Source: a virus
Virus record (IMG/VR): IMGVR_UViG_3300023179_002841
Coordinates: 1-34,882 of that record
Strand: one strand, 5' to 3'
DNA: 34,882 nucleotides
Shown: positions 10,101 through 34,882 of the stretch, in pieces
Layout of the letters: each line of letters opens with the position of its first letter
Position numbering within the stretch: position 1 is the stretch's first letter
Made by a program: the position numbers and the translations under genes
The notes under the pieces: generated by a model
Databases searched by the model: none
What the model was told of the DNA's origin: nothing
The model's input: only the letters and a program-made list of their open reading frames with translations

Positions 10101-13100
10101 TACCAGTAGTATTAAATGAAGCATTAAATGTTTTTGCAACACTGCCTAAAATAAATGTATTGCTACTTGAACCACCAATAACGACCCCTTGAGCACCTGT
10201 ACCATTTTGTATGATTAGATCACCATCTTTGGCTGTTAGTGTTCCATTAGTTACTAATTGCACACTGCTATATTCTTCAATACTTAGGTCACCACCTAAT
10301 ACACTGATAGCTGGTACACTGTCTACTAGCTTTAATCGGCTTCTATACCCTTTGCTTCTATAAACAATAAAGTTTCTAATTGGAGGTATTAGATCAGCAC
10401 TGAGCTTACCTAAACTATTAAGCTGAGGGATGGCTCCAGGTACATTACTAGTACTAACCTCTCTATCAATAAAGTTACCTAATCTATTTTCCAAGAAACT
10501 ACGAACAGCTAATTGTGTGCTTAAACGGTTGTGAGTTGGTCCACCAATTTCATTATCACCTAAATCAATATCTGCACTGAATTCTTCAATGGTAATATTA
10601 CCCACGGCCAACTTCAATGCATCCAATGCAGCAATACTCACTGTGTTGGTGAATTGTACATTACCAGTTTTGTTTTCTGCTCTAATAAAGTCACCAACTT
10701 TAAAGTCACCTAATTCGTTGGTTCCTGAACTATATACTCTACCTGGTAATTCGCTGACCTGTTCATATTCTACTCTGGTTCTACCTCCGTTTTGTGGTAG
10801 TGCGTTATAGTCAACACCACTACCTGCATATTCCCAAGTATGACTACTACTGTTTACAATACTAGGTCTGTGTAACCATAATTGCTTTTCTGGTAATGTG
10901 CCTAAGTTTGTCAGAGAACTACCAACCTGTGTTGGTAATATTTTAAATGTGGCTGTATATAAATTATTAACGGGCTCAACAAAATCTACATTTATAAATG
11001 TACTTGGTGAACCCTTATGATCAAAACTAACTGTACTATCTAATGTGAATTGGTTTCTAATAAAAGCATTTCCAATTTGTACTTTTTCTACGCTCACTAC
11101 TAATTTGTAGGTAGTAGGATCATAGCTTAATACATAAGCTTTATTTGGTTGTCCTATAGTGGCGCCTTGTATTTCTCTACCTTGAACAAAGGTATAGTTC
11201 CCAGCCTGTAGAGTAAGTTCTTGATAAACCTGATGGCTGTCTATTAGATCATCAATAAAATATTCTCTAACATTCTTAATAAATTTGTGGTTTGTTCCAG
11301 TAGGTGTTCCTCTAAGATCAATTGGTTTAGTTAGACTATCATCGGTATAAAGTTTAAATTGATCAGCACTGATTTCCTTGACGTAATAGCTTTGTCCATC
11401 AGTTAACCCTCCAATTACTGGATTTGAATTACTTGTATAAACTAATTTTAATTTATTAGTGAATCCATGACCAACAATATCAAAAACATTATCGTTTACA
11501 TTAACAACAGATGCGTTAAATGTTATTTCATCAGTTGGCTCTTTTGACTTGTAAAATTCAGTAACATCACCTCTGCTACTGTAATCAACTATTTCTGGTA
11601 CATTTACAATATCATCTATTATATCTATAAGTAGGTCAAAATAATCACCCACAGTGGCCTGTAGATCAATAGGGACAAGAGCTAAGGTTAATGTTTTTAA
11701 CTGTGTAAATGCTGCTATGTTTTGTTCTTTTTGATTTATTAGATTTACACTAGTAGCAGTAGCATAGCTTAATCCTGCTTCTACAGTTTTATTATTTCCT
11801 CCACTTAGTAAATCATAGGCCACAGCTTCTAGTATAAGTTTGGTATCTCTTCTACATTTGATTTCATCGTAGTTAAAAACTGTGGGAATACCATTTACTA
11901 ACCTAACTTGGAAAGGAGTATTATTATTAGTAATTTGATCAGCAATCCAATCTATTAGATCGTCTGTAAGTTCTTCTTTATTATTTAGAATTGTATTGTA
12001 TGTGGTTCTATATTTAGGATCTCTTACTCTAATAATATAGTGTTGTACAGGTAAATCACCAAACCCAATTGCAGTGAGAGTAGGTATACCACCTGCTGAC
12101 GTACCAGTGGCTACAATAATACCTTTATTAAAATCAAAAGCATTTGGGCTATAACCTGTAGCACGTAGAGCAAATTGTCCAAAGTTTGTAGCACTGTTGG
12201 TAATACTTAAATATCCACCGCTTTGGCAATAACTACCATTTAAACAGAAAATTTGGAAACAGCTAACAATCTGTGCATAAGCATCGTTAATCACACGCCA
12301 ACCTGTACCACCAAAGCTCAACATAGTAAATGCGTTTGCAACCATTGACTTACCCTGTTGTGGTACAGGTCCTTCAACAGGATTTTCAGCTTCTATACTA
12401 TTAGCTGGCACGTTTGGTGTAGCAACTTTACTACCATCAACCAATACACCATTACCACCTAAGAAACTTATAATACTACAATTTTGTACATATGGACTTA
12501 TACTGATAACAGGTTTAGTATTAGGTAAGTTGATGTATCCTGCACGACTACAGGTTAAATCACTGGGGTCGTCAAAGGCCACAGCATAATCAAATGTTTG
12601 ACTTGGCACAAGATTTACATCTAATTTATCTCTAAAAGTAATTTCTGTAAAGTAACAGCCATTACGTACACGCAGCATATCTTTATTAGCATTAGCTGGT
12701 CTAATATTACAGGCACGTAGACCAGCACCAACTACACTGACATTATCTGGAATGATAATTGGATTATCTTCCACATAATCACCGCTGGCTACTGTGATGA
12801 CAATACGTTTATCGTTTGGTCTATAATCTGCTATATAGGCCACTGTGCTAGTTTGTAATACTATCTTATTGGCCAGTAATGTATTTCTAGCTGGGACTAA
12901 AGAAACATTAGATGTAGCATTGGGGTAGAACAATGTTGGTTCACTAAAAGCTGATGATATAATAGTAGTGTCAATTAGATCGAATAGGTCATCTATCTTT
13001 GTAAGTGCTATGCTTGATGCTACATTGGTATTAGGAGTTCTGTTTATACCATTTTGATATGAGGTAACTGGGCTTAAATTTTTTACTATCTGTTTAATCA

Positions 13101-16005: not shown

Positions 16006-16037
16006 TATTTTCTCCAGCAATAGCTTGGAGAATGACT

Positions 16038-16075
16038 CCAAACCGCTCTATTTGTATTTATTTAGAACAGTTTGG
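16038..16075 (-). promoter_or_regulatory. 12-bp hairpin with TAAATA motif in its loop, upstream of the giant fibre gene
   Basis: In minus-strand RNA, CCAAACTGTTCT (16064..16075) and AGAGCGGTTTGG (16038..16049) pair over 12 bp with two G-U wobbles. The 14-nt loop AAATAAATACAAAT contains the late-promoter-like AATAAATA (16055..16062). There is no following U run, so it is not an ordinary terminator. It lies 33 nt before the fibre ATG and could be a promoter element, an RNA-stability leader or a processing site. Confidence 0.55.
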
Positions 16076-16115
16076 GAATCTTGGACTAATTTAAAATCTT
16101 CCATTGTTTGCCATC

Positions 16116-16382
16116 TTAATTGACAAACACATTACTGCTACCCGAAGATCTATGTCCGCAGTTAGCTACATCACCTCTTCTACATGTTTTTTTATTATTG
16201 GTAAAGACATTTGGACTACCTGAAGCCATTCTAGGTCCTCCGTGAGTACCAGGTCCATGTGGTTGTACTTTATCAAATATCCTTACTACGGGTTTATTAT
16301 TGGCAAAAACATTGGGGGAACCTTGTATATTTCTCCCCCCGGTCGTATCCTTACCTGTATCTCTAGTTATTCCTCTGGCCAT
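16116..16382 (-). CDS. PAAR-domain tail-spike tip protein (T4 gp5.4-like)
   Basis: 88 residues with the PAAR pattern: two copies of GSPNVF(A/T)NN(K), a central PHGPGTHGGPRMASGSPNVF, Cys in KTCRRGDVANCGH, and a third SGSSNVFVN ending. PAAR proteins form the sharp, metal-stabilised cone on the trimeric spike of contractile machines and puncture the outer membrane; T4 gp5.4 is the phage example. Length and motif spacing fit. The start ATG overlaps the stop of the upstream gene (TAATG), so translation is probably coupled. It lies between structural genes and the giant fibre, as expected for a baseplate component. Confidence 0.88.
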   Translation of the reverse strand: MARGITRDTGKDTTGGRNIQGSPNVFANNKPVVRIFDKVQPHGPGTHGGPRMASGSPNVFTNNKKTCRRGDVANCGHRSSGSSNVFVN

Positions 16383-17002
16383 TATGGTGAATCGTTAGTT
16401 GTTATCAATGCGTTTCTATGCTTAAGAGCTTCTTCTACTTTAGTTTTAATTTTAGATAAATTAGGAATAATCTTATTAAGGGCATCATCAAAGTTAAAAT
16501 TTTCATTTTGATAAAATAGTAATGTTGAATAGATATTCAAATATTCCCAAGGATTTTTAAAGTGTATACCATCATTCTCGCCCATTTCTTTTAACCTGTT
16601 AAGCCATTGTTCCATTAAAGTTTGTTTGTCAGCAATTATGGTTTGTTTGGCAGCAATTGTGTCTATATCAACACGTATTTCTTCAATGTCGTTTTTCACA
16701 TCATTGGCAATTCTTGTTCGGATTACTTGTGCAGCAGAATTTATAGTTTGTGCCCACACTAGTGCTACACTATCATAATCTATACCACTACCACTACCTC
16801 CGCCACCGTCACTAAATGAATAATTAAAGCTGCCACCACCAAAGAATTCTTGTCCTGGGATATTTGCATTTGCAGATGTAATTTCATTGGAGAGGTCAGT
16901 CAAAGCAGTAGCTAGAGCAGACAACCCTGCCTCTGTTGCTTCTACTGCTAGGGTGCTAGCTTGTATTGCTAATATTGCTTTTGCCGCTACAAACGTTGCC
17001 AT
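16382..17002 (-). CDS. Probable virion/baseplate-associated protein, unknown
   Basis: 206 residues, no recognised family. The N-terminal third is Ala-rich and helical (MATFVAAKAILAIQASTLAVEATEAG with hydrophobic heptads). A Gly/Ser-rich flexible stretch lies around residues 55 to 73 (FGGGSFNYSFSDGGGGSGSG). A long probable coiled coil follows (about 90 to 145, IRTRIANDVKNDIEEIRVDI), then NPWEYLNIYSTLLFYQNENF and a helical, Lys-rich end. A good TAAGGAT ribosome-binding site precedes the ATG. Coupling to the PAAR gene suggests a partner in the tail tip or baseplate, but this is inference from context. Confidence 0.65.
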   Translation of the reverse strand: MATFVAAKAILAIQASTLAVEATEAGLSALATALTDLSNEITSANANIPGQEFFGGGSFNYSFSDGGGGSGSGIDYDSVALVWAQTINSAAQVIRTRIANDVKNDIEEIRVDIDTIAAKQTIIADKQTLMEQWLNRLKEMGENDGIHFKNPWEYLNIYSTLLFYQNENFNFDDALNKIIPNLSKIKTKVEEALKHRNALITTNDSP

Positions 17003-17037
17003 AGTTTATCCTTATTAAATACTCCTAGTACTATTTC

Positions 17038-17328
17038 TTATGCCAGTTTAATACCAGTCGTGCTCTGAATATATTGATCAGCAAATTGCTTGTCAGTAGC
17101 TTCCATCATCATTATGCTAGCTCTTGAAATTTTAATATTTTTATCTGGATTTACGGTGAATACAAAAGGCATCATTCCTAATCCCTGTTGTCCCATACTT
17201 AATACCATAGGCTTACTAATTGATACATTTGTAGCTGTATCTTCTATAAGTTTACCTATAATCTCTTCACCAGTGTTTAATCTTAAAGTTACTACTTCAC
17301 CTACGCTTGCACCCTTGTCAATAATCAT
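17038..17328 (-). CDS. Small Sm-like (LSm/Hfq-like fold) phage protein, tentative
   Basis: 96 residues. VVTLRLNTGEEIIGKLIEDT followed by a second strand set (NVSISKPMVLS ... PFVFTVNPDKNIKISRASI) resembles the Sm1/Sm2 arrangement of small beta-barrel RNA-binding proteins, and the helical C-terminus ADQYIQSTTGIKLA recalls a conserved protein of T4-like marine phages. RNA binding is not proven, and typical Hfq motifs (YKH) are absent. The start ATG overlaps the stop of glutaredoxin (TAATG) and AGAGG lies upstream, so it is coupled to the nrd genes. Confidence 0.55.
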   Translation of the reverse strand: MIIDKGASVGEVVTLRLNTGEEIIGKLIEDTATNVSISKPMVLSMGQQGLGMMPFVFTVNPDKNIKISRASIMMMEATDKQFADQYIQSTTGIKLA

Positions 17329-17558
17329 TATGCTGCCTCTTTTAGATATTTAGTAAGTTCATTATACCCACCAATGAGTTCATCATTGATAAAGATTTGA
17401 GGGACTGTACGTGCTGTTGGCACTGATTCTAATAGTTCTTCCTTAGTGTAGCCGTCACCTATTTTACGCTCTTCAAATTCTATGCCTTTTTGTGTTAATA
17501 AAGACTTGGCCATATCACAATATGGACAATGGTACTTACTCCATACGATTGCTTTCAT
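17328..17558 (-). CDS. Glutaredoxin (electron donor for ribonucleotide reductase)
   Basis: 76 residues, a compact glutaredoxin. The redox motif is CPYC (Cys11, Cys14), the cis-proline loop is TVPQIFI, and GGYNEL is the glutathione-binding turn. It reduces the C-terminal dithiol of NrdA after each catalytic cycle, the role of T4 NrdC. I chose the ATG at 17558 because GAGGAAAAT lies directly before it and the motif spacing matches the family; the longer frame to 17603 overlaps nrdB. It is placed nrdA-nrdB-grx on one strand with 7 nt between nrdB and grx, which fits co-expression. Confidence 0.95.
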   Translation of the reverse strand: MKAIVWSKYHCPYCDMAKSLLTQKGIEFEERKIGDGYTKEELLESVPTARTVPQIFINDELIGGYNELTKYLKEAA

Positions 17559-17565
17559 ATTTTCC

Positions 17566-18663
17566 TCACATTGTTGGTAGTTCATCATAGTTAATAGCGT
17601 CACTCATAACGCCTATAACATAATTAGTTGATTCGTTTTCCTGTAGTGCTGTTTGTTTCTTACTGGTATCACTATGTTTGTTGAACCATGGGATTGGATT
17701 GGTCTTGACTGTTGTAACATACTTAAGCCCAATATCCTTTAGTCCAGTTGCGGCTGTATAATCTACAAACTCTTTTAGTATATTGGCATTGAGACCTATC
17801 ACAGGGCCTTTCTTAAACAAATAGTCTGCCCAGACTTTTTCCTCACGGATAACATCCATATACATAGCATATACTTCTTGCTCACATTCTTGTTTGGCCT
17901 TGGCGAATCTTGGATCTTCCTTGACCACTTGATTAATAATCCAAGCAGTCCATCCTTTATGTAGTAGTTCATCTTGTAGGATTAGGCTGATAATATTGCC
18001 ATTACCAATAAAGATTTTGTTCTCTACCATGGCTAGGCTTGTGGCAAAACTTACCATAAAGCGGAAGGCTTCTAATGCATAACTGGCATTGAGCGCTAAC
18101 CAAATATGCTTGATATGATGACTTTCAGCCACATCGGTACCTATTTCTTTGAAGCAATTTAGTTGGTGTAGAGCCTCGTAATACCGACCTACACTTGATG
18201 CCATATCTACTATCTCTGAGGTATCGTGTATGGTATTGAATACATCCTTGGGCACATTATATATGTTACGAATAATATGACTATAACTGCGACTATGAAT
18301 ATTAGTCTCGAAGAATGTCCAGTTATATACTAATGCTTCTAGTTCTGGTAAACTAATTATTGGAGTAAAGATTTGGCTAGGGCCACGTCCTTGTAGACTA
18401 TCCAAGGCTGTTTGACGCAATAGATTACTGGTGAATATGTGCTTAACTGCTTCACTGGCATCTTTAAAATCCTGTGCGTCTTTGACTAGGCTGATCTCTT
18501 CTGGTACCCAAAAGAAACCACGTGCTGTTTTTTCATAGTCGGCTATTTTGTTGTACTTGACTTCCTCAAACCTCTGTATGGTAACAGGTCCTTGTGGATC
18601 AAGGAACATCTTACGATGTAGGTAGTCTGTACGTGTCTGTAGGTTGTATTGTTGTTTGCTCAT
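17566..18663 (-). CDS. nrdB: Class Ia ribonucleotide reductase, small (radical-generating) subunit NrdB
   Basis: 365 residues. The diiron/tyrosyl-radical subunit that starts the radical used by NrdA. Recognised residues: Trp52 (FFWVPEE), Asp88 (ALDSLQGR), Glu119, His123 and radical Tyr127 (FETNIHSRSY), Glu198 (YALEAFRF), Glu232 and His235 (QDELLH), and a C-terminal Tyr in NYDELPTM for the transfer path. One oddity: E. coli has ETIHSRSY, with Glu and His 3 residues apart; here an inserted Asn makes them 4 apart. The ATG at 18663 overlaps the nrdA stop (ATGA) and is preferred over the upstream 18681 start, which lies in nrdA. Translation is coupled to nrdA. Confidence 0.96.
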   Translation of the reverse strand: MSKQQYNLQTRTDYLHRKMFLDPQGPVTIQRFEEVKYNKIADYEKTARGFFWVPEEISLVKDAQDFKDASEAVKHIFTSNLLRQTALDSLQGRGPSQIFTPIISLPELEALVYNWTFFETNIHSRSYSHIIRNIYNVPKDVFNTIHDTSEIVDMASSVGRYYEALHQLNCFKEIGTDVAESHHIKHIWLALNASYALEAFRFMVSFATSLAMVENKIFIGNGNIISLILQDELLHKGWTAWIINQVVKEDPRFAKAKQECEQEVYAMYMDVIREEKVWADYLFKKGPVIGLNANILKEFVDYTAATGLKDIGLKYVTTVKTNPIPWFNKHSDTSKKQTALQENESTNYVIGVMSDAINYDELPTM

Positions 18664-20996
18664 AATATACAGGAATCGCAATCCTCTTCAAAATTTATTT
18701 CTGCTAGTTCTAACTTGGGATCAATGTGATGTCCATTAGTCTGTACGGGATCCATCCTTGAACCCTGCTTATTGATTAGGCTATAGTAGAATGTTTTAAT
18801 ACCCCACTTGTGAGCCTGCATCAAATTCTTTGCTATCAATGTTGTGGGTACACGACGATCTGCATAATGTGCTGGATTATAAAATGTATTTGTGCTTATA
18901 CTTTGATCTACGTAGGCAGCAAGTACAGCAGCAGTTTTAATATAACCTACGCAGTCTGTTTGTTCCCACATCAATTGATATTTGTTCCTAAGTTTATGAT
19001 ACTCTGGAACTACCTGTGTAAATGATCCTGCTTTACTTTCTTTAGTACTGATCAAACTCATAGGTAGTTCAATACCATTAGTACTATTGATAACCACACT
19101 GCTACTTTCCACAGGAGCAATGGCCATTAATGTAGCATTACGCACACCATATTGCTTGGCCTGTTCTCTTAATACTTCCCAGTCAAGTTCAGGAGTAAAG
19201 TCTGCTAGTTCATTCACACCCTTGGCTCTACGTTCCCAAGGGAATATACCCTGACCATAATAGGTCTTATCACTGTCCTTACACTTACCACGCTCTTTGG
19301 CTAGTTCAATAGTTGCTTCTGTCAAGTAGTAGGCCTGATGTTCCATCCAACTCTTAACTTCACTAAGAGCAGCAGGTTCACCATACTTTAACCCTCTCTT
19401 GGCGTGCCAGTAGGCTAAGTTAGTAACACCAATGCCTAATGGCTGTATTTCTTCGTTACTTAATTTACTTTGTATGCTTAAGTAATCTTGATAATCAAGT
19501 ATGTTACACAGACTGCGCTGAAGTATACGGCAAGCACGGCGCATATCCTCAGGATGCCTGAACATTCCCCAGTTGATTGACCCCAAGGTGCATAGAGAAA
19601 TGCGGCCTTTTTCGTCGTCAAGTCTCTTGAAACTCTTGGTGGGCAAAAGGATCTCACAGCATAGGTTACTTTGATATATGGTATGGTACTCTGGATCAAA
19701 CGGTCCTTGGTTCATTACATTATCTATAAACACTAGATATATGCGACCAGTATCCGTACGCTCTTTTAGAATACCTCCCTTGAATACTTCCTCAGCACTG
19801 ATTGTCTTTTTTCTCAGTCCTAGTGTGTTTTCATATTTAACATATAATTCTTCAAACAGAACTGTGTTACTGTAGAAGGCTTCATATAGGTCTGGGACTT
19901 CGTTGGGGTCAAAGAAAGTTATGTTTCCTTGTTCTCTGAATCTTCTCCAAAAGAAACTACTAAGGACAACCCCATAATCGAGATGACGGACACGGGTTTC
20001 GTCGGTTCCTTGATTGTTTTTAAGTACAATAAGATCATCAAACTGATAATGCCATATAGGATAAAAAACAGTTGCGCTAGCATTGCGTATGCCTCCTTGA
20101 CTGCAACTACGCAGGTCACTAAACCATTTCTTAAGGAAGGGCAACATACCTGTATGCATGATCTCACCGCCTCTAATAGGACTGCCTAATGGCCTTACTC
20201 GTCCTACCTCTAAGCCTATGCCTGCTCGTTTGCTGGCATATTTAGCCATCATTTCTCCACTAGCAAAAATGCTGTCAAGATCATCATCGCTGCGTATGAG
20301 TACACAACTACTGAACTGCTTAGTGGGAGTGCCAAGCCCAGCAAGAACAGGAGTAGCGAGAGTGAATAAGCCGTCTGAAGCCGCATCATAATAATCCTTA
20401 ATATAACGCAAACGAGCCTTGTTGGGCTCTTCTCGATGAAACACAGTGGCAGCAGCAATCATATAGCGTACCTGTGGTGTTTCATATATTTCTTTTGTAC
20501 TACGATTTTTAACTAGATACTTTTCGATAAGTTGTTCAATGGCAGCATAACTATACTCTTGATCCTTATCGTGATCCAGCATGTCATTCATTCGATTCCA
20601 GTCTGCTTCGCTGTACCATTCTAATAGTTCTTTGGTATATAAACCAGTAGCAATATTACGCTTGACTATATCATATAAATGTGGGATAATACTGCTACCA
20701 TATACATCCTTACGTAACATATGATAACGCTGTCGTCCTGCTACATATTGATAGTTAGTATGTCCAATATCTGGATTAGACTCTACATCAATCAAATCTA
20801 CAATGGCACGTAAGGTAATGCTATCAATTTCCTTAGTGCTGATTCCATCGTAAAAATGTGGGTTACTACGTATTTCAATCATACTTTGGCTGACATCAGA
20901 AACACCTTGGCATATTCTACTGACCTGAGTTTGCCATTTTGTCAGGTCTAATGGCTCTCTACTGCCATCTCTTTTAACTACTGTGATTTTTTCCAT
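18660..20996 (-). CDS. nrdA: Class Ia ribonucleotide reductase, large (catalytic) subunit NrdA
   Basis: 778 residues; reduces ribonucleotides to deoxyribonucleotides. An N-terminal ATP-cone-like region (TVVKRDGSREPLDLTKWQ) suggests possible dATP/ATP control. Active-site residues: Cys231 (QFSSCVL) and Cys469 (SLCTLGSINWG) as the redox pair, Asn444, thiyl Cys446 and Glu448 (SNLCCEILLP), and radical-path Tyr737 and Tyr738 (KTFYYS). The C-terminal dithiol is Cys773 and Cys776 in CDSCIL, a C-x-x-C where E. coli has a longer spacing. A second Cys447 sits beside the thiyl cysteine, where E. coli has Leu. A sigma-70-like promoter lies upstream. It forms an operon with nrdB, grx and the Sm-like gene, bracketed by virion genes. 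Confidence 0.97.
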   Translation of the reverse strand: MEKITVVKRDGSREPLDLTKWQTQVSRICQGVSDVSQSMIEIRSNPHFYDGISTKEIDSITLRAIVDLIDVESNPDIGHTNYQYVAGRQRYHMLRKDVYGSSIIPHLYDIVKRNIATGLYTKELLEWYSEADWNRMNDMLDHDKDQEYSYAAIEQLIEKYLVKNRSTKEIYETPQVRYMIAAATVFHREEPNKARLRYIKDYYDAASDGLFTLATPVLAGLGTPTKQFSSCVLIRSDDDLDSIFASGEMMAKYASKRAGIGLEVGRVRPLGSPIRGGEIMHTGMLPFLKKWFSDLRSCSQGGIRNASATVFYPIWHYQFDDLIVLKNNQGTDETRVRHLDYGVVLSSFFWRRFREQGNITFFDPNEVPDLYEAFYSNTVLFEELYVKYENTLGLRKKTISAEEVFKGGILKERTDTGRIYLVFIDNVMNQGPFDPEYHTIYQSNLCCEILLPTKSFKRLDDEKGRISLCTLGSINWGMFRHPEDMRRACRILQRSLCNILDYQDYLSIQSKLSNEEIQPLGIGVTNLAYWHAKRGLKYGEPAALSEVKSWMEHQAYYLTEATIELAKERGKCKDSDKTYYGQGIFPWERRAKGVNELADFTPELDWEVLREQAKQYGVRNATLMAIAPVESSSVVINSTNGIELPMSLISTKESKAGSFTQVVPEYHKLRNKYQLMWEQTDCVGYIKTAAVLAAYVDQSISTNTFYNPAHYADRRVPTTLIAKNLMQAHKWGIKTFYYSLINKQGSRMDPVQTNGHHIDPKLELAEINFEEDCDSCIL

Positions 20997-22793: not shown

Positions 22794-22801
22794 TATTTAT
22801 C
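22794..22801 (-). promoter_or_regulatory. T4-late-type promoter motif (GATAAATA) for the beta-helix gene
   Basis: Minus-strand GATAAATAC, 19 nt before the ATG, followed by the small inverted repeat CCCT-ATA-AGGG that contains the ribosome-binding site. Confidence 0.55.
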
Positions 22802-23513
22802 ATAGACCGTAGTATTGTTCTACCCTGTCAAACCAACGATGACTCCAGTGGTTAAAATCCTTGCTTTCTAAAACAAATTGTTGATACTGTGGTTCTCCCC
22901 ATTGTCCAGGGCTGGTTTCTGGGGGTCTAACACACATCATAATCACACCCTTGCGTATGTTAGTACCATATACAGCATTATGAGCCAGTGCATAGGCAGT
23001 GATCTGTAGATAGTAGTCCTCTATCCATTCTAATTTTTTAGGCTTGTTAGTCTGTTTGAAGTCTAATATACTGGGTTCACCATCGTGCATACCCACGCAA
23101 TCTGTAGTTCCAGCATAGAGTTCTGGATAATATAATGGAACTTCATTGCCCCATATCTCATTGATATCAGCAAAGCCCTCGTCAATAACCTTTTTGGCCA
23201 TTAACAAACTTTGTTGGGCATAGGGATTGCTTACACTATCTTTGATACCTTCGCCTTTGATATAGCGTTCTAGGAAGGTATGCATCCTAGTACCTCGGGC
23301 AGCAGCTTCTGTAGTTATGGCCTGTGCTTGTGCGTGACCAACACGATTGCGCCATTCCTTTAAGGCCTGTTTGGCTTCTTCTGGTTTGGTCTTATCTAGA
23401 ATAGTTGTAACACTGGGTACTCTACTACCATCTGGGCAAGCATATAATCTTTTACCTGCTGATTCTTCTCTGGTTAGATTCTTGTATTCGTATATAGGAT
23501 TTAGTAATGTCAT
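22800..23513 (-). CDS. PD-(D/E)XK exonuclease (Cas4/RecB-like)
   Basis: 237 residues. Nuclease signature in order: RVPSVTTILD (about 31 to 40), RGTRMH (73 to 78), Glu124 in GNEVPLY, Asp138 in GTTDCVG, Asp151-x-Lys153 in ILDFKQ, and Gln170...Tyr174 in YYLQITAY, the motif IV helix of Cas4/RecB-family exonucleases. Similar single-domain exonucleases occur in T4-like cyanophages, where they are thought to act on host or recombining DNA. The ATG at 23513 has no ribosome-binding site and begins only 6 nt after a perfect -10 box, so the mRNA is probably leaderless. No other start fits before residue 70. It is set between virion genes but with its own host-type promoter, so it is probably expressed early. 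Confidence 0.85.
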   Translation of the reverse strand: MTLLNPIYEYKNLTREESAGKRLYACPDGSRVPSVTTILDKTKPEEAKQALKEWRNRVGHAQAQAITTEAAARGTRMHTFLERYIKGEGIKDSVSNPYAQQSLLMAKKVIDEGFADINEIWGNEVPLYYPELYAGTTDCVGMHDGEPSILDFKQTNKPKKLEWIEDYYLQITAYALAHNAVYGTNIRKGVIMMCVRPPETSPGQWGEPQYQQFVLESKDFNHWSHRWFDRVEQYYGL

Positions 23514-23519
23514 AGAGCA

Positions 23520-23547
23520 ATTATACTATTTTTTATTATTTTGTCAA
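23520..23547 (-). promoter_or_regulatory. Strong consensus sigma-70 promoter, probably giving a leaderless exonuclease mRNA
   Basis: Minus-strand TTGACA (23542..23547), 16-bp A-rich spacer, TATAAT (23520..23525); both boxes are perfect. Six nt (TGCTCT) separate the -10 from the ATG, so transcription should start at or next to the ATG. Confidence 0.85.
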
Positions 23548-27523: not shown

Positions 27524-27784
27524 CTAATGTTTTACCTTACGACTTTCATGAATTTTACCCATGCCACGTTTGAACTTATCGCTATCTCCGCTTCGTATAG
27601 CGTTAATAAACCTACGCTCTAATTCAGTAGCAGTCTCTAAATCGTAGTTTTCTTTGATTAGTTTGAGAAGGTTAATAGTACTGGCTATTAGATTGATACC
27701 TTTGCTCTCTATGAGATGATCCTTATTTCTAACAAGACTGATCTCATTAAGTTCTTCTAATATGCTCCTAGTGCTTTTTTTCAT
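27524..27784 (-). CDS. Conserved small phage protein, 86 aa
   Basis: 86 residues. MKKSTRSILEELNEISLVRN, LIASTINLLKLIKENYDLET and ELERRFINAIRSGDSDKFKR form a helical protein closely resembling a small conserved protein of T4-like cyanophages (pattern recalled, not searched). Function unknown. AGAGGAAAG ribosome-binding site, and the only perfect TATAAATA late promoter motif in the window, lie upstream. It is the last minus-strand gene before the plus-strand island. Confidence 0.72.
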   Translation of the reverse strand: MKKSTRSILEELNEISLVRNKDHLIESKGINLIASTINLLKLIKENYDLETATELERRFINAIRSGDSDKFKRGMGKIHESRKVKH

Positions 27785-27801
27785 TCTTTCCTCTCACCAG
27801 T

Positions 27802-27809
27802 TATTTATA
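27802..27809 (-). promoter_or_regulatory. Perfect T4 late promoter element TATAAATA
   Basis: Minus-strand CACTATAAATAACTGG, 17 nt before the ATG of the 86-aa gene. It lies back to back with the plus-strand sigma-70 promoter at 27816, making a divergent late/early control region. Confidence 0.75.
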
Positions 27810-27815
27810 GTGAGC

Positions 27816-27843
27816 TTGACATATCAAATAATTAGTATATAAT
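27816..27843 (+). promoter_or_regulatory. Consensus sigma-70 promoter for the plus-strand small-gene cluster
   Basis: TTGACA (27816..27821), 16-bp spacer, TATAAT (27838..27843); both boxes perfect. The leader of about 50 nt contains CATAAATA (27865..27872). Confidence 0.88.
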
Positions 27844-27864
27844 ATCATATATGCTGCTCTGCCG

Positions 27865-27872
27865 CATAAATA
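27865..27872 (+). promoter_or_regulatory. TAAATA late-promoter-like motif (CATAAATA), plus strand
   Basis: GCATAAATAGTTACACACAT, 30 nt before the first ATG of the plus cluster; it may allow a second, late round of expression. Confidence 0.35.
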
Positions 27873-27902
27873 GTTACACACATATACTGAGAGGACCTAT
27901 AT

Positions 27903-28082
27903 ATGACACTATCAACTATGATGCTCAATATCCTTGAGCGACTAGCAGAAATGTTTCCAAATGACTCTTACCAAGATCGTTTGGAAAAATATCTTAAAAC
28001 CAAAAGCATTACCGATGCTGCTACTCTTGAAAACTATATCAAAGAGTTTAATTATAATTCTCACAAGGAACATTTAAAATGA
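27903..28082 (+). CDS. Plus-cluster small protein 1, 59 aa
   Basis: 59 residues (MTLSTMMLNILERLAEMFPN ... LENYIKEFNYNSHKEHLK). Helical, soluble, with an amphipathic N-terminal helix; no family recognised. GAGAGG lies 9 nt before the ATG. Its TGA overlaps the next ATG (ATGA), so translation is coupled. First gene after a consensus host-type promoter, so probably expressed immediately after infection. Confidence 0.72.
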   Translation: MTLSTMMLNILERLAEMFPNDSYQDRLEKYLKTKSITDAATLENYIKEFNYNSHKEHLK

Positions 28083-28183
28083 TTAAATATATTATAATGG
28101 CTATTTTTCTTGCCCTCGAAAAGAGTGGTCAGGCACGTGCCCGTAGATATTTGAGTAACCATATTAAAGGAGCGTGGCAATGA
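28079..28183 (+). CDS. Plus-cluster microprotein 2, 34 aa
   Basis: 34 residues: hydrophobic N-terminus MIKYIIMAIFLALEKSG, then an Arg-rich segment QARARRYLSNHIKGAWQ. It starts in the stop codon of protein 1 and its own stop overlaps the ATG of protein 3 (ATGA), so the three are coupled. Possibly a peripheral membrane peptide. No family recognised. Confidence 0.6.
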   Translation: MIKYIIMAIFLALEKSGQARARRYLSNHIKGAWQ

Positions 28184-28287
28184 AATTCATTACAATGATG
28201 CGTGAAGTATTATGCCAAGCCTTATTGGCCAGTCATCTCACTCGTAGAGGTCGTTGGCAAAATGCTGCTAAACTAATGGGGAAATAA
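28180..28287 (+). CDS. Plus-cluster microprotein 3, 35 aa
   Basis: 35 residues: MKFITMMREVLCQALLASHL then TRRGRWQNAAKLMGK, an amphipathic helix followed by a basic end, the same general plan as microprotein 2. AAGGAG lies 8 nt before the ATG, inside the preceding gene. No family recognised. Confidence 0.6.
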   Translation: MKFITMMREVLCQALLASHLTRRGRWQNAAKLMGK

Positions 28288-28288
28288 T

Positions 28289-28432
28289 ATGATCTTATGC
28301 TTTTTAATTATGACTCTAGCAACATTAATAGTTTATTTGGACAAAAGATTAATAAAAGACGATCCTGTTTTGGGCGAGGAATGGGATTTTACTCGCCCTA
28401 ATTATAAAAAAACTATTGACATTATTAAATAA
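28289..28432 (+). CDS. Plus-cluster small membrane protein 4, 47 aa
   Basis: 47 residues. An N-terminal transmembrane helix (MILCFLIMTLATLIVYL) is followed by a charged cytoplasmic-looking tail (DKRLIKDDPVLGEEWDFTRP). It begins 1 nt after the stop of microprotein 3. The -35 box of the next promoter lies inside its last codons. No family recognised. Confidence 0.62.
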   Translation: MILCFLIMTLATLIVYLDKRLIKDDPVLGEEWDFTRPNYKKTIDIIK

Positions 28433-28443
28433 ACATATATAAT
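28416..28443 (+). promoter_or_regulatory. Second consensus sigma-70 promoter of the plus cluster
   Basis: TTGACA (28416..28421), 16-bp spacer, TATAAT (28438..28443), the same perfect boxes and spacing as at 27816 and at 23520. The leader acatacacagggagaag resembles that of the gene at 28791. Confidence 0.87.
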
Positions 28444-28466
28444 ATACATACACAGGGAGAAGATCT

Positions 28467-28763
28467 ATGTTCAATCAACCAGAATTATTCATTGACACTG
28501 TACAGAATGCCAAAAAGCAGTGGGTTGAAAAATGTGTTCGTAATGACGATATAAAAAATAACTGTCATATCTATATTGACGCACAATCAAAATTTTTAAA
28601 AACAGCATTGACCGTAGCCGGAGGTATTGCTACCGTTGTAGGCCACGAAATGCTGAACACAAAGATTGAAAAAATGTTTAATCCTTTTGGGATAGACTTT
28701 TTCAAAGCAGGCTGGGATGCCTGGGCAGAGGCTAACAGAGAAGCCTACGCTAAAAAATCCTAA
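28467..28763 (+). CDS. Plus-cluster protein 5, 98 aa, weakly phasin-like
   Basis: 98 residues. MFNQPELFIDTVQNAKKQW and IYIDAQSKFLKTALTVAGGI, an amphipathic helix pattern that weakly recalls small phasin-family (polyhydroxyalkanoate granule) proteins; KMFNPFGIDFFKAGWDAWAE follows. The phasin idea is a guess and needs a profile search. GGGAG lies 8 nt before the ATG, and the gene has its own strong promoter. Confidence 0.68.
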   Translation: MFNQPELFIDTVQNAKKQWVEKCVRNDDIKNNCHIYIDAQSKFLKTALTVAGGIATVVGHEMLNTKIEKMFNPFGIDFFKAGWDAWAEANREAYAKKS

Positions 28764-28766
28764 ATA
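28759..28766 (+). promoter_or_regulatory. TAAATA motif before plus-cluster protein 6
   Basis: CCTAAATAGACATACACACA overlaps the stop of protein 5 and lies 24 nt before the next ATG; the leader acatacacacagaggag is shared in part with the gene upstream. Confidence 0.3.
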
Positions 28767-28790
28767 GACATACACACAGAGGAGAATATA

Positions 28791-29075
28791 ATGTCTGATT
28801 TTAACGGTTTAACACAAAAAGTAACAATGCCTGAAGTCAAGTTTAATAAAAACGGTTATGAAATCCGTACAGAAATACTAGGTATGGCCAAACAAATGGC
28901 CGAATTTGAATACAGTGCCAAGTTTCAAGGATGGGAAATGAGCACTGCTCGCGATGAGAAGACTGGTCAGTTTGTCACTACGGTAGGGATGCCGCAGGTT
29001 CCAGGTTTGGAGCAGATTCTACAGACTGCACAAAAAATGTATGACTTTGTAAATCAAGGTACAAATAAAAGATAA
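28791..29075 (+). CDS. Plus-cluster protein 6, 94 aa, conserved in T4-like phages
   Basis: 94 residues. MPEVKFNKNGYEIRTEILGM, FQGWEMSTARDEKTGQFVTT and MPQVPGLEQILQTAQKMYDF make a pattern I associate with small uncharacterised proteins of T4-like cyano- and pelagiphages; no function is known to me. GAGGAG ribosome-binding site. Followed by a strong terminator that closes the plus-strand island. Confidence 0.72.
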   Translation: MSDFNGLTQKVTMPEVKFNKNGYEIRTEILGMAKQMAEFEYSAKFQGWEMSTARDEKTGQFVTTVGMPQVPGLEQILQTAQKMYDFVNQGTNKR

Positions 29076-29103
29076 CACCGCATAGCGGACACAATAATAA
29101 TAC

Positions 29104-29125
29104 GGGGCCCTTGTGCCCCTTTTTA
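29104..29125 (+). terminator. Rho-independent terminator closing the plus-strand cluster
   Basis: GGGGC-CCTTGT-GCCCC followed by TTTTT on the plus strand, 28 nt after the stop of protein 6. It overlaps the stop codon of the convergent glycosyltransferase gene. Confidence 0.87.
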
Positions 29126-30124
29126 TTTGGCCTCGACTAGGTTTTCTTTAAATATGTTCCAGGCTTCTTCCCAAGTCCAACGTAGGCTACCTTTATATAC
29201 ACTATGTCTATCCAAGGTTAAAGCACGGGTAATAGCCTCGTTCAAGTCTTTATCCATATATCCTGTGACACCCTCATCTATTACATCTAATGGACCACTC
29301 ACAGGATATGCTGCCACAGGAGTAGCACAGGCCATGGCTTCTATCATAACTAGGCCAAATGTTTCCCAACGTGACGGAAATACAAACACATCAGCATTGG
29401 CGAAATATTCTGCTAGGGCAACTCCAGTCTTGAATCCTACAAACTCTACATCCTTATATTCTGCCTCATAACGTGCTCGCATGGGTCCATCACCTACCAT
29501 GATCTTACGACTATTAGGATATTGTATTCGGAAGAAATCCTCTAGGTTCTTTTCCTTACTTACTCTACTCACACATACTAGATTGAAAGTGCTATCTGTT
29601 CTATTGCGTAATTCAGGACGGAATGTACTACGGTCTACTCCTCTGGTCCATGGTATGATATCGGCCACTAGGCCATGCTGTTTAAGTTCATTTGCAAGTG
29701 TGCGTGTAGTAGTTAATACATGCCCAGTATGCTTATGAAACCACTTTATATACCGCCATGTCATATTTTCAGGCAGACCCATCAAAGTTTTTAATCCTTC
29801 AGGAAACCTTGTATGATAGGCAGTGTTATATCTAATACCACGTTTAGATAGATATGCTCTAGCCCATAGACCAACAGGTCCTTCTGTGGCTATGTGTATA
29901 TGATCTGGGTCAAGTTGCTTGATTTTCTTACCCATCTTTCTAGGATAAGCCAGCTTGACCTCATTATAGATAGGACAATCTACAAAGCGAAATAAACTGG
30001 GGTCAATATAATCAATAGAATAGCCATCATTTAAGGCCAAACTTTCAATATTGGTATAGGTGGTAACTACTCCATTGATTTGATCTGGCAAATTATCTGT
30101 TATTATTAGTATTTTTTTCATCAT
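29123..30124 (-). CDS. GT4-family glycosyltransferase (GT-B fold)
   Basis: 333 residues. The N-terminal domain opens ILIITDNLPDQINGVVTTYT, the usual acceptor-side glycine loop, with HIATEGPVGLWARAYL and NTAYHTRFPE following. The donor domain has NLVCVSRVSKEKNLEDFF, IMVGDGPMRARYE and the GT4 E-x7-E motif ETFGLVMIEAMACATP with VSGPLDVIDEG. It most resembles mannosyl- or sulfoquinovosyl-type transferases (SqdX/MgtA-like); donor and acceptor are unknown. The start (ATG at 30124 or 30121) overlaps the previous gene by about 30 nt, so it is translated as part of that operon. It might alter host lipid or polysaccharide, or virion sugar. Confidence 0.87.
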   Translation of the reverse strand: MMKKILIITDNLPDQINGVVTTYTNIESLALNDGYSIDYIDPSLFRFVDCPIYNEVKLAYPRKMGKKIKQLDPDHIHIATEGPVGLWARAYLSKRGIRYNTAYHTRFPEGLKTLMGLPENMTWRYIKWFHKHTGHVLTTTRTLANELKQHGLVADIIPWTRGVDRSTFRPELRNRTDSTFNLVCVSRVSKEKNLEDFFRIQYPNSRKIMVGDGPMRARYEAEYKDVEFVGFKTGVALAEYFANADVFVFPSRWETFGLVMIEAMACATPVAAYPVSGPLDVIDEGVTGYMDKDLNEAITRALTLDRHSVYKGSLRWTWEEAWNIFKENLVEAK

Positions 30125-30698: not shown

Positions 30699-31479
30699 TA
30701 ATATCTATGGAGAGTGCTGTGTAATCCACTCGGTTCCAATCTTCTCTACGACCACGAGGATTACTGACAAATCTTAGATATTTATAAGGTATATTCTTTG
30801 TATCATGGTTATGTCCAAAGACCCAATAACGACATTTTTCATTAATGTCCGCGTCTAAGGTCCATTGGAATCGTGAATTTCCATAACAACCTACTACATT
30901 ATAATCTGGAGGATATCTATTCCAACTTATACAACTCGAATGAGGCAAACTATGACTTACAACTATGATATCTTTGACATTAGGATCCAACGTGGCCTCC
31001 ACCATCATATTGGCTAATAGGTTAGCATCTAATAGACTTTGATTCATTTGATTTTTTATTATTGTATCTGTCATGTCATAATGATTTTTACAAGTGGATA
31101 CAGTTTGATGAGCAGCAATATTTGGCTGTCCAAAATCAAAACTCCACCATCCACATATGCCTATAAATTTCACATTATTTATTAGGAGTTGCTTATCTCC
31201 CAGATAAGTTGCTTTTGTTTGAGATATACAGGATTTCCAATATTGAATTGATGCTTCCAAATTTTCCATATTATTTTGATGTTCATGATTACCATCAATA
31301 ACTAGAACATGGTTATAATAATTAGTAAGCTTGTGTAAATATTCACAAGTAATATCTACACTATCACTAGTATCTCCTGCTACTACCAATATATCGCTAT
31401 TTTGTTCATAGAGCCAATCTGTTTCATAGCTGCGACCCCAATGATCGATGTGTAAATCACTAACCAGATCAAAATTCAT
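30682..31479 (-). CDS. Calcineurin-like metallophosphoesterase
   Basis: 265 residues with all metal-binding blocks: DLVSDLHIDHW (D-x-H), VVAGDTSDS (GD), VIDGNHEHQ (GNHE), VVSHSLPHSS (H) and WVFGHNHDTKN (GHxH). The two-metal centre hydrolyses a phosphomonoester or diester; the substrate is unknown. The ATG overlaps the rimK-like stop (ATGA, 31476..31479). It belongs to the same overlapping operon as RimK and GT4. It is distinct from the LpxH-like phosphoesterase at 32703..33482. Confidence 0.9.
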   Translation of the reverse strand: MNFDLVSDLHIDHWGRSYETDWLYEQNSDILVVAGDTSDSVDITCEYLHKLTNYYNHVLVIDGNHEHQNNMENLEASIQYWKSCISQTKATYLGDKQLLINNVKFIGICGWWSFDFGQPNIAAHQTVSTCKNHYDMTDTIIKNQMNQSLLDANLLANMMVEATLDPNVKDIIVVSHSLPHSSCISWNRYPPDYNVVGCYGNSRFQWTLDADINEKCRYWVFGHNHDTKNIPYKYLRFVSNPRGRREDWNRVDYTALSIDINEFNK

Positions 31480-32369
31480 AGTCGTTTCCTTATATAGTTA
31501 ACAATTTCCTCGCCCATGTCAGTGCCACAAAACCTATCTATGCCCTCAAAACCTGGACTACTATTGGCCTCACAGACCAAATATTTTTCGCCATCAAACA
31601 ATAGATCCACGCCAGTTATTTCAAGATCAAATGCACGAGCAGTCTTACTGGCCAATTCAGAGATCTCTTCTGTTAGTTTAAATCTTTCCCCTAGACCTCC
31701 ACGGCTTATATTAGCTTTGAAATCACCTGCAGGTGGTATACGTTTCATTGCTGTCACAGTCTTACCACCAATAACCCAAACTCTGAGATCAAACAATTCT
31801 CCGCTGTTAACAAATTCCTGTATGATCAAAGTTTTTTTACTCTTAAGATTGTCTGTAAGATCCATAAAGTTTACAAACATGTCCTTGTCTTTACAGAGAT
31901 ATACTCCCTTGCCCTGACTGCCCGTTACCAATTTTACCACACAGGGAAAACCAATTTCTGTTTCTACAATATCGATGTTAATTGGGTGACTGACCAGCAT
32001 GGTTCTTGGTGTGGGCAACTTGGCACGGGCCAGTATTTGACTGCTGATCATTTTATCTCTACTATTGAGAATACTTTGACTGTTATTGACAATTGGAATA
32101 TCAAAGTTTTCTAATTGTCTCAGCAGAGCCAAAGTAAAATAATTAGTACCGGCACCTGTTCTTACTAACACAGCATCAGGAAGATTAATACGATTACCTT
32201 GATATCTAATACTTTTATGACTTTTACGACTGGTTATTATGTCAAAGTTTTTAGGTTGAAACACCGAGCACTGGATTTTATGACGATCAAACCTTTTTAC
32301 CAGTGTCTGTGTTTCCGCATCTTTTTCCGCAGCAGCACTATTATTATGGAAAATCCATACAGATTTCAT
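31476..32369 (-). CDS. RimK-like ATP-grasp ligase
   Basis: 297 residues (E. coli RimK has 300). ATP-grasp blocks in order: FPCVVKLVTGSQGKGVYL (about 148), TLIIQEFVNSGELFDLRVWV (about 185), a lysine/arginine strand TAMKRIPPAGDFKANIS with RGGLG, and the metal-binding end ITGVDLLFDGEKYLVCEANS (about 258). RimK adds glutamates to the C-terminus of ribosomal protein S6; phage relatives may act on S6 or another acidic tail. It starts in the stop codon of a 48-aa acidic protein (ATGA) and ends in the start codon of the metallophosphoesterase, so it is the second gene of a tightly coupled operon. Confidence 0.9.
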   Translation of the reverse strand: MKSVWIFHNNSAAAEKDAETQTLVKRFDRHKIQCSVFQPKNFDIITSRKSHKSIRYQGNRINLPDAVLVRTGAGTNYFTLALLRQLENFDIPIVNNSQSILNSRDKMISSQILARAKLPTPRTMLVSHPINIDIVETEIGFPCVVKLVTGSQGKGVYLCKDKDMFVNFMDLTDNLKSKKTLIIQEFVNSGELFDLRVWVIGGKTVTAMKRIPPAGDFKANISRGGLGERFKLTEEISELASKTARAFDLEITGVDLLFDGEKYLVCEANSSPGFEGIDRFCGTDMGEEIVNYIRKRL

Positions 32370-33515: not shown

Positions 33516-34882
33516 TTACTTTTTTCTAGCCTTGCCTGATTTCATATTGGCCATCCAATGTGCCAACTGTCCTTTACGCCCACCTTGTTTAGCCACCTTA
33601 CGCAGTGTGCCTACTGACGCTTTGGTTGGTACTCCATGTCTTTTACTATCACCTTTGTCCTGTGGGTTCCGACCATCAGCAAAGTTTTCTACTTGTCTTC
33701 TATAACCTTCATCTAGGTCACGTGCTATAAATTTAATACCAACAGCACCAGCAACTTTCTCCCACGCACCGCCGCTCATGTCTTCATCTACACTGAAACA
33801 AACATCATCAGCACCAGTTTTTTTTAATTGGCCACTAGCCCATTTTTTCCATTCACTAAGTATTATCCTCCATACACCAGGATAACTTCCGCTAGCGGCA
33901 TCTTCAACCATTAGTTCAAGATATTTACGACCATCAGCATGATTAAATAAAGGCCCGCAGAAGAAATTACATTCCCAATCTTTTTTACCATATTGTCCAA
34001 ACACATCGGCTTTGACATTAACACTGGCTAGATCAGTGGTTGCTGATACTCCTTCATCCTCCGCCCAAACCTTTAATTTTACATCAGGGTAAAGACTGTT
34101 GAAGGCTTGTTTTACAACTCGAGCCATATATCTTGAGGCCTTAGGAGACCAAACATCCATAAGTTTGCTTTCCCATTCTGGACCTGACTCTTGATTAGTG
34201 GCCTGTGGGTTCGGACCATCGGCAAAGTTTTCAGTTAATTTAGGTTCTTGGGTTCGTAATTTATAGGCAAGTTTACGGAAAATTTGGTTTTCAATTGCAC
34301 GTACTCTGTCTATACTGACACCAAACTCAGCAGCTATTTCATCAAGAGTTAGATCATTAAAATATCTAAGTTTTATTAGAAGTTTTTCTCTATCGGAAAA
34401 ATTGTCTAAATTCTGTAGTAATTTTTTTATATCAATTTGATCAGTATTCAATTCATAAGATCCTGAATCACGATTCGTGTATCTTCTAGCATTATCAACT
34501 GGATCAGGTTCTAGAGTTGGCATTCTTTTTCCTCTATAAGTAGGACCATCATACCTATATTTGGAAATCTGTTGATTAGGATGAGCTTCAGTTAGTTTGG
34601 TCAAGTCTAACATTTGACGCAGACCAGGCTTGATAGTGGTGGCTCTCAATTTTTTAGTATCTATTTCTTGATCCTTATATCCTTGGATCTTATTCATATT
34701 GTTAACCACCCACTGCCATGCTTCTTCATCTGATTTAGCATGAAGTTTTATACTAGGCAAGTTAGGATCTTCTATGTGATAAACATAAAGTATAGGCTTG
34801 AACGCACTGTGTTGTGGTTTATTCACATCTTTATATTGTTTAGGAGCAGGACCTTTGGCTATGACAAAATTAAAATCAAGAG
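33516..34882 (-). CDS. Modular protein with a sigma-70 region-4-like helix-turn-helix (5' end beyond the window)
   Basis: At least 454 codons; the frame stays open to the right edge, and the GTG at 34826 is probably not the true start. Order from the N-terminus: a small beta/alpha segment (KPILYVYHIEDPNLPSIKL), a linker, a helix-turn-helix (FSDREKLLIKLRYFNDLTLD, EIAAEFGVSIDRVRAIENQI, FRKLAYKL) strongly like sigma-70 region 4, then TENFADGPNPQ, an unrecognised domain of about 170 residues, a second VENFADGRNPQ, and a basic C-terminus (GVPTKASVGTLRKVAKQGG, HWMANMKSGKARKK) seen on phage modular proteins. The two ENFADG linkers are also a 31-nt DNA repeat. It could bind DNA or RNA polymerase; a regulatory role is inference. 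Confidence 0.75.
   Translation of the reverse strand, partial: LDFNFVIAKGPAPKQYKDVNKPQHSAFKPILYVYHIEDPNLPSIKLHAKSDEEAWQWVVNNMNKIQGYKDQEIDTKKLRATTIKPGLRQMLDLTKLTEAHPNQQISKYRYDGPTYRGKRMPTLEPDPVDNARRYTNRDSGSYELNTDQIDIKKLLQNLDNFSDREKLLIKLRYFNDLTLDEIAAEFGVSIDRVRAIENQIFRKLAYKLRTQEPKLTENFADGPNPQATNQESGPEWESKLMDVWSPKASRYMARVVKQAFNSLYPDVKLKVWAEDEGVSATTDLASVNVKADVFGQYGKKDWECNFFCGPLFNHADGRKYLELMVEDAASGSYPGVWRIILSEWKKWASGQLKKTGADDVCFSVDEDMSGGAWEKVAGAVGIKFIARDLDEGYRRQVENFADGRNPQDKGDSKRHGVPTKASVGTLRKVAKQGGRKGQLAHWMANMKSGKARKK
33659..33689. repeat. Direct repeat copy A (encodes the second ENFADG linker)
   Basis: 31 nt matching 34202..34232 with two mismatches, same strand and frame. The two copies bracket the unrecognised central domain of the sigma-like modular protein. 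Confidence 0.9.
34202..34232. repeat. Direct repeat copy B (encodes the first ENFADG linker)
   Basis: Partner of 33659..33689; 29 of 31 nt identical. The repeats are 543 nt apart, an exact multiple of three, so recombination between them would remove the central domain without breaking the frame. Confidence 0.9.

Follow-up and report, generated by a model that had tools for sequence, protein, structure and literature searches.

What does a phage gain from six very small plus-strand genes set among large genes that all run in the opposite direction? Host inhibitors are plentiful among the early small genes of phages, most of which are confined to one lineage. The window analysed here, i.e. the whole IMG/VR record of 34,882 bases, carries RNR, exonuclease, glycosyltransferase and sigma-factor-like genes, all on the minus strand, and its plus-strand ORFs outside the island overlie longer minus-strand genes. 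Between minus-strand genes, the island (27785-29125) holds plus-strand frames of 59, 34, 35, 47, 98 and 94 aa that span 27903-29075 (Table 1). The original prediction, made from the letters alone, had described these six frames, four of them coupled or nearly abutting, together with two perfect sigma-70 promoters and a strong closing terminator in a window that is otherwise minus-strand, and this layout holds in every respect: both promoters are exact, the o59/o34 and o34/o35 junctions are ATGA overlaps, o35 and o47 are separated by 1 nt, a GC hairpin with a T run ends the unit, and every large gene elsewhere lies on the minus strand. The 86-aa flanking gene has cultured homologues that adjoin a DnaB-like helicase. 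Elsewhere on the minus strand, the window contains a single open frame of 3,957 aa beside the RNR genes (4168-16041), two possible auxiliary metabolic genes encoding a NifU-like Fe-S protein (790-1182) and a RimK-like S6 modification enzyme (31476-32369), and a 436-aa protein with a sigma-factor-like segment (33516-34826; phrog_36, phrog_351) that may serve the phage as a sigma factor for further classes of genes.

Table 1 Features of the small-gene island and its flanks, with positions in the window.
Feature	Position	Strand	Remarks
Flanking 86-aa gene (phrog_11854)	27524..27784	-	Divergent; synteny anchor
Sigma-70 promoter P1	27816..27843	+	TTGACA-16-TATAAT, 12/12; before the 59-aa gene
o59, 59 aa	27903..28082	+	First gene of the unit; new family 'YQxxLExYIxxxxPxxAADVE'
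o34, 34-aa basic helical peptide	28079..28183	+	'GQARARRYLSNHIKGAWQ'; ATGA-coupled to o59
o35, 35-aa basic helical peptide	28180..28287	+	ATGA-coupled to o34; 35 aa from ATG, 37 from upstream GTG
o47, 47 aa	28289..28432	+	One hydrophobic helix, then conserved acidic tail 'LGEEWDF'
Sigma-70 promoter P2	28416..28443	+	TTGACA-16-TATAAT, 12/12; within the 3' end of o47; leader ~17 nt
o98, 98-aa helical protein	28467..28763	+	Fast-evolving family, conserved core 'IDAQTxFxK'
o94, 94-aa core protein	28791..29075	+	'KFNKNGYEIRTDILxMAK...AEKMYxFVN'
3' hairpin	29078..29088	+	CCGC-AUA-GCGG, NUA triloop
Intrinsic terminator	29104..29119	+	GGGGCCCTTGTGCCCC-TTTTT; GC hairpin and T run, closes the unit
Flanking glycosyltransferase (GT4)	29123..30124	-	Convergent

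Iterated profile searches over 80-odd fetched loci found 64 relatives of o59, 31 of o34, 38 of o35, 16 of o47 and 43 o98-like proteins. Loss of the frames in related phages, which had been named beforehand as evidence against the prediction, was not observed. For all six frames, dN/dS stays well below 1 in almost every pair, with pairwise values of 0.02-0.12 for o94, 0.02-0.26 for o35, 0.07-0.34 for o34, 0.09-0.55 for o59, 0.24-0.37 for o47 and 0.05-0.54 for o98 (leaving aside one near-identical pair that differs by three changes); because of the common ancestry of the pairs, these estimates are not independent. Chance frames are not expected to be kept in relatives, to show such dN/dS values and to retain their promoter positions (see below) and, judged by sequence comparison, the six frames are genuine genes that are mostly under purifying selection. 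The best conserved is o94, which has at least 599 IMG/VR relatives, shows 35 invariant residues across 17 diverse sequences and is single-copy in all six large contigs (up to 400 kb). When used as a query against 50,697 cultured-phage records (INPHARED), o94 found no relative; a later search gave only weak matches, one of which led to Roseobacter phage CRP-9, and a pattern scan of 84,980 bacterial and archaeal species genomes confirmed none. IMG/VR records are metagenomic contigs and mostly fragments, and these negative results cover the contents of the libraries only.

No Pfam or PHROGs family matched o59, nor did o47 match any significantly when scanned as a single sequence. The peptides o34 and o35 group in one family (A4), and o35 is likely a tandem relative of o34; TPR membership was rejected for them, as the match to repeat proteins covers only 13-16 residues and was read as composition. 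Phasin_2 matched one of 28 members of the o98 family weakly (E 0.0094), and assignment to Phasin (PF09361) was rejected, since the gathering score was not reached. Likewise, phrog_4624 was discarded as the o94 family: member matches were weak (best E 0.013), and the profile failed to detect o94 in three contigs out of four, matching over 15 positions only in the remaining one. Two low-confidence AlphaFold models (pLDDT 52 and 67, the latter for o94) had no significant Foldseek match in the viral and PDB libraries, and no solved fold matched o94.

To which phages does the island belong? Contigs bearing o94 reach 400 kb, and the one of 399,796 b (G001) encodes a T4-type capsid gene, a terminase and 27 tRNA genes; the source phage is an uncultured jumbo phage from a lake, and the o94-bearing contigs represent a jumbo-phage clade. 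The terminase of G001 is 54% identical to that of PA5oct, the closest cultured terminase, and this similarity places the o94-bearing phages near PA5oct. The TTGACA/TATAAT promoters presumably point to a host with a standard sigma-70, and not to one of the Bacteroidota.

With regard to timing, the whole window has three perfect sigma-70 promoters, compared with 0.14 expected in shuffles, the third being located on the minus strand (23520-23547) upstream of the exonuclease gene (22800-23513). A perfect promoter in G001 (373361-373388) adjoins its 238-aa counterpart of the exonuclease gene. In the best-scoring relatives P1 keeps its position: the sites score 10-12 of 12 and lie at -82 to -94 relative to the first gene. 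P2 is likewise kept in relatives, at -48 to -66 relative to o98. Sites of at least 11 of 12 are present at a constant distance upstream of o59 in 15% of loci (0.2% in shuffles) and upstream of o98 in 29% (0.3% in shuffles), and the internal control position upstream of o35 has no sigma-70 promoter in relatives. Near-consensus sigma-70 promoters are therefore kept among relatives, as expected for early genes read by host polymerase, and terminators follow o94 in most of them. G001 has 36 perfect promoters, just one of which falls within the 80-190 kb plus-strand block with the capsid (93 kb) and terminase (165 kb) genes, where about 10 would be expected under uniform placement; no probability is attached to this depletion because promoters cluster. 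Thirteen of the 36 fall at 10-19 kb, where the ORFs are mostly small. At 10312-19385 of the corresponding locus (L098; G001:1-20000), 12 of the 13 perfect promoters start TTGACAGG, and many have a small ORF ~29 nt downstream; this stretch is probably the main early region of the o94-bearing phage group. T4-type late promoters (TATAAATA, opposite strand) occur twice in the window against 6.7 expected, and therefore give no late-promoter signal. Of the original prediction, which saw in the island early genes for host takeover or superinfection control, the early-gene part thus gains indirect backing, through promoters that are kept in place across the clade and are rare in the capsid/terminase block of G001; this supports early expression of the island without proving it.

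The weak tblastn match (E 0.1) that led from o94 to CRP-9 gp61 (MW514246) turned out to be informative. Comparison of o94 with the profile of the marine-contig homologues of gp61 (the NPYQIRTD family A6, 76-80 aa) by hhalign gave 97.1% (E 5.8e-11, 74 columns), against at most 0.7% for 20 column-shuffled controls and for reversed controls, and both share an N-terminal Y-x-IRTD-I/L-L-x-M-x-K and a C-terminal A-E-x-x-Y-x-F-V. At the profile level, o94 is a member of an NPYQIRTD/o94 protein superfamily, with homology over most of the protein. Directly upstream of the marine core gene there is often either a DUF1127 gene or a gene for a 57-60 aa protein with the motif 'GYSRAAxxLAxxGxxxEAK' (ARAA). 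The o34/o35 family matches this ARAA family at 97.5-98.2% (hhalign, E 7e-12 to 4.5e-14; shuffled controls at most 0.5%), so that o34 and o35 are, by the same kind of comparison, homologous to the marine small helical peptides. The presence of two homologous families side by side in such different phages suggests a functional link between them. The ARAA-bearing marine loci examined have T4-like replication surroundings, with Hsp20 adjoining the cassette and RegA, clamp loader and DNA polymerase in the aligned region; the order is Hsp20-DUF1127-ARAA-core in two of the T4-like loci (L128 and L132) and DUF1127-ARAA-core in L148, L164 and others. Seven marine loci that were checked (T4-like and CRP-9-like) have no comparable sigma-70 promoter, and the marine cassette is located in replication or, sometimes, structural gene neighbourhoods, which argues that early control is not family-wide.

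These neighbourhoods bear on whether o94 acts on the host at all. The CRP-9 homologue lies two genes ahead of the one for the small terminase, and homologues in further marine podovirus-like contigs adjoin structural genes; combined with the very strong conservation and single copy of o94, which fit a core structural role, this could mean that o94 is a virion or assembly helper, i.e. a small scaffold-, packaging- or ejection-associated protein, and not a takeover factor. We think this improbable: in the jumbo clade o94 belongs to a metabolic region remote from the capsid and terminase genes, runs in the opposite direction to its neighbours and lies behind sigma-70 promoters, and the T4-like marine copies are near RegA, Hsp20 and DNA polymerase genes.

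More telling for function may be the company of the core gene. A same-strand DUF1127 gene no more than ~1 kb away is present at 54 of the 76 distinct marine loci, and nine show the order DUF1127-ARAA-core; gp62 of CRP-9 is itself DUF1127 (Pfam E 3e-8, above the cut-off). Since the marine core and ARAA genes usually lie beside DUF1127, one small-gene cassette recurs across unrelated phage lineages. In six jumbo contigs no DUF1127 scored above the cut-off, and the freshwater cassette is without it; there, o59 takes the DUF1127 position. Membership of DUF1127 (PF06568) was rejected for the island proteins, with no match for o59 or for members of the o34/o35 family, and o59 has no detectable relation to the phage DUF1127 profile (hhalign, 0.4%). 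A seemingly recurrent C-terminal tail (such as KGAWQ, RGW, LRGFV or LKGWV) is seen in o34, several o59 members and marine DUF1127 proteins. DUF1127 proteins are small bacterial regulators that bind RNA, as CcaF1 does, or sensor kinases such as PhoR (PMC12501420, PMC10253847). The association suggests that the cassette could act on the host at the RNA or sensor-kinase level, and gives a concrete guess at the function of its proteins.

An RNA-level role could also concern the phage itself. A hairpin closed by a C-G pair around an NUA triloop occurs within 75 nt 3' of o94 in 43 of 70 distinct sequences (61%), against 3.8% in mononucleotide shuffles. For 17 distinct 11-mers, 94% of cells agree with the pairing and 16 double changes were counted (5.5 in shuffles), with compensatory changes at three of the four pairs; because these 17 rows were picked for pairing, 61% against 3.8% is the fairer number. 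Rfam gave no match, and a genome-wide element was rejected, as the other matches in G001 look scattered and are mostly AT-rich. The covarying hairpin is confined to the 3' end of o94, CcaF1 assists the maturation of small RNAs that lie downstream of it in the same operon (PMC12501420), and the T4-like marine copies adjoin the gene for the RegA translational repressor. All three would suit a cassette that regulates the phage's own transcripts, with small RNA-binding proteins and the hairpin forming an autoregulatory or RNA-processing circuit that times the early-to-late switch. The hairpin is, however, missing from a second synteny group (such as L007, L008, L055 and L079) and from the marine loci, and so cannot be a universal target; we regard such a circuit as unlikely. 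In the second synteny group (L007, L008, L009, L010, L014 and others), a terminator 3' of o94 is followed at once by another sigma-70-like promoter.

Taking the data together, we tentatively favour, at a little under an even chance, an early cassette of RNA- or regulator-binding peptides that acts on host gene expression. Unmodified host RNA polymerase would read this jumbo-phage early unit from the two sigma-70 promoters up to its own terminator. The core of the cassette would consist of o94 and the short helical ARAA-type peptides o34/o35. These peptides would most probably target RNA or regulators of the host early in infection, tilting its RNA turnover or signalling to the advantage of the phage. 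The 3' hairpin may have a role in protecting or processing the o94 message, or may provide the site at which cassette products bind to exert control; o47, as a membrane peptide, and the variable o98 would have been added in particular lineages. It is also conceivable that the unit serves superinfection exclusion or otherwise acts on the membrane, with o47 as effector and the other proteins as accessories, given its hydrophobic helix and conserved acidic tail and the fact that early promoters suit immunity genes. This is most unlikely, since o47 is found in only about 15 loci and is therefore not a constant part of the cassette, whereas o94, o59 and the ARAA peptides are far more widespread. 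None of the island proteins matches a known takeover or exclusion protein; host takeover by the favoured early cassette is plausible. A bolder version, which we consider doubtful, is that an undescribed cassette (the YxIRTDILxMAK...YxFV core plus ARAA peptides and DUF1127 or a substitute) in at least three unrelated freshwater and saltwater phage lineages intercepts host DUF1127-type regulation of RNA turnover or phosphate signalling, the NUA-triloop hairpin being its own RNA target in the jumbo phages.

The recurrence of the cassette across lineages, its association with DUF1127 and the hairpin 3' of o94 all go beyond the original prediction. The core protein o94 is nearly universal in an abundant clade of uncultured jumbo phages, whereas the cultured-phage and family libraries searched contain only the distant CRP-9 homologue. 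Profile homology and gene order connect o94 with T4-like and CRP-9-like phages of the sea. With its partners, it may represent a shared, undescribed phage toolkit for acting on the host cell.

How does the island compare with known systems? Like the early host-takeover clusters of T4-type phages, it is a bank of tiny genes with near-consensus sigma-70 promoters, overlapping frames and its own terminator, but no homology to a described takeover protein was found for it. In the Pseudomonas phage PA5oct (Arenbergviridae, Wroclawvirus), the 86-aa flanking gene is present without a small-gene island beside it, and no o94 homologue was found there. DUF1127 small proteins (YjiS, CcaF1, Agrobacterium SDPs; PF06568) are likewise very short, basic and helical, and the marine cassette has one beside the core gene, although neither PF06568 nor the phage DUF1127 profile matches any protein of the island. 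Finally, gp61/gp62 of CRP-9 differ from the island in that gp62 is DUF1127 rather than an ARAA or o59 protein, and in lying near terminase genes with neither a sigma-70 promoter pair nor an NUA hairpin, but gp61 is homologous to o94 at the profile level and has a small basic gene directly upstream; CRP-9 being a cultured phage, the function of the cassette can be approached at the bench now.
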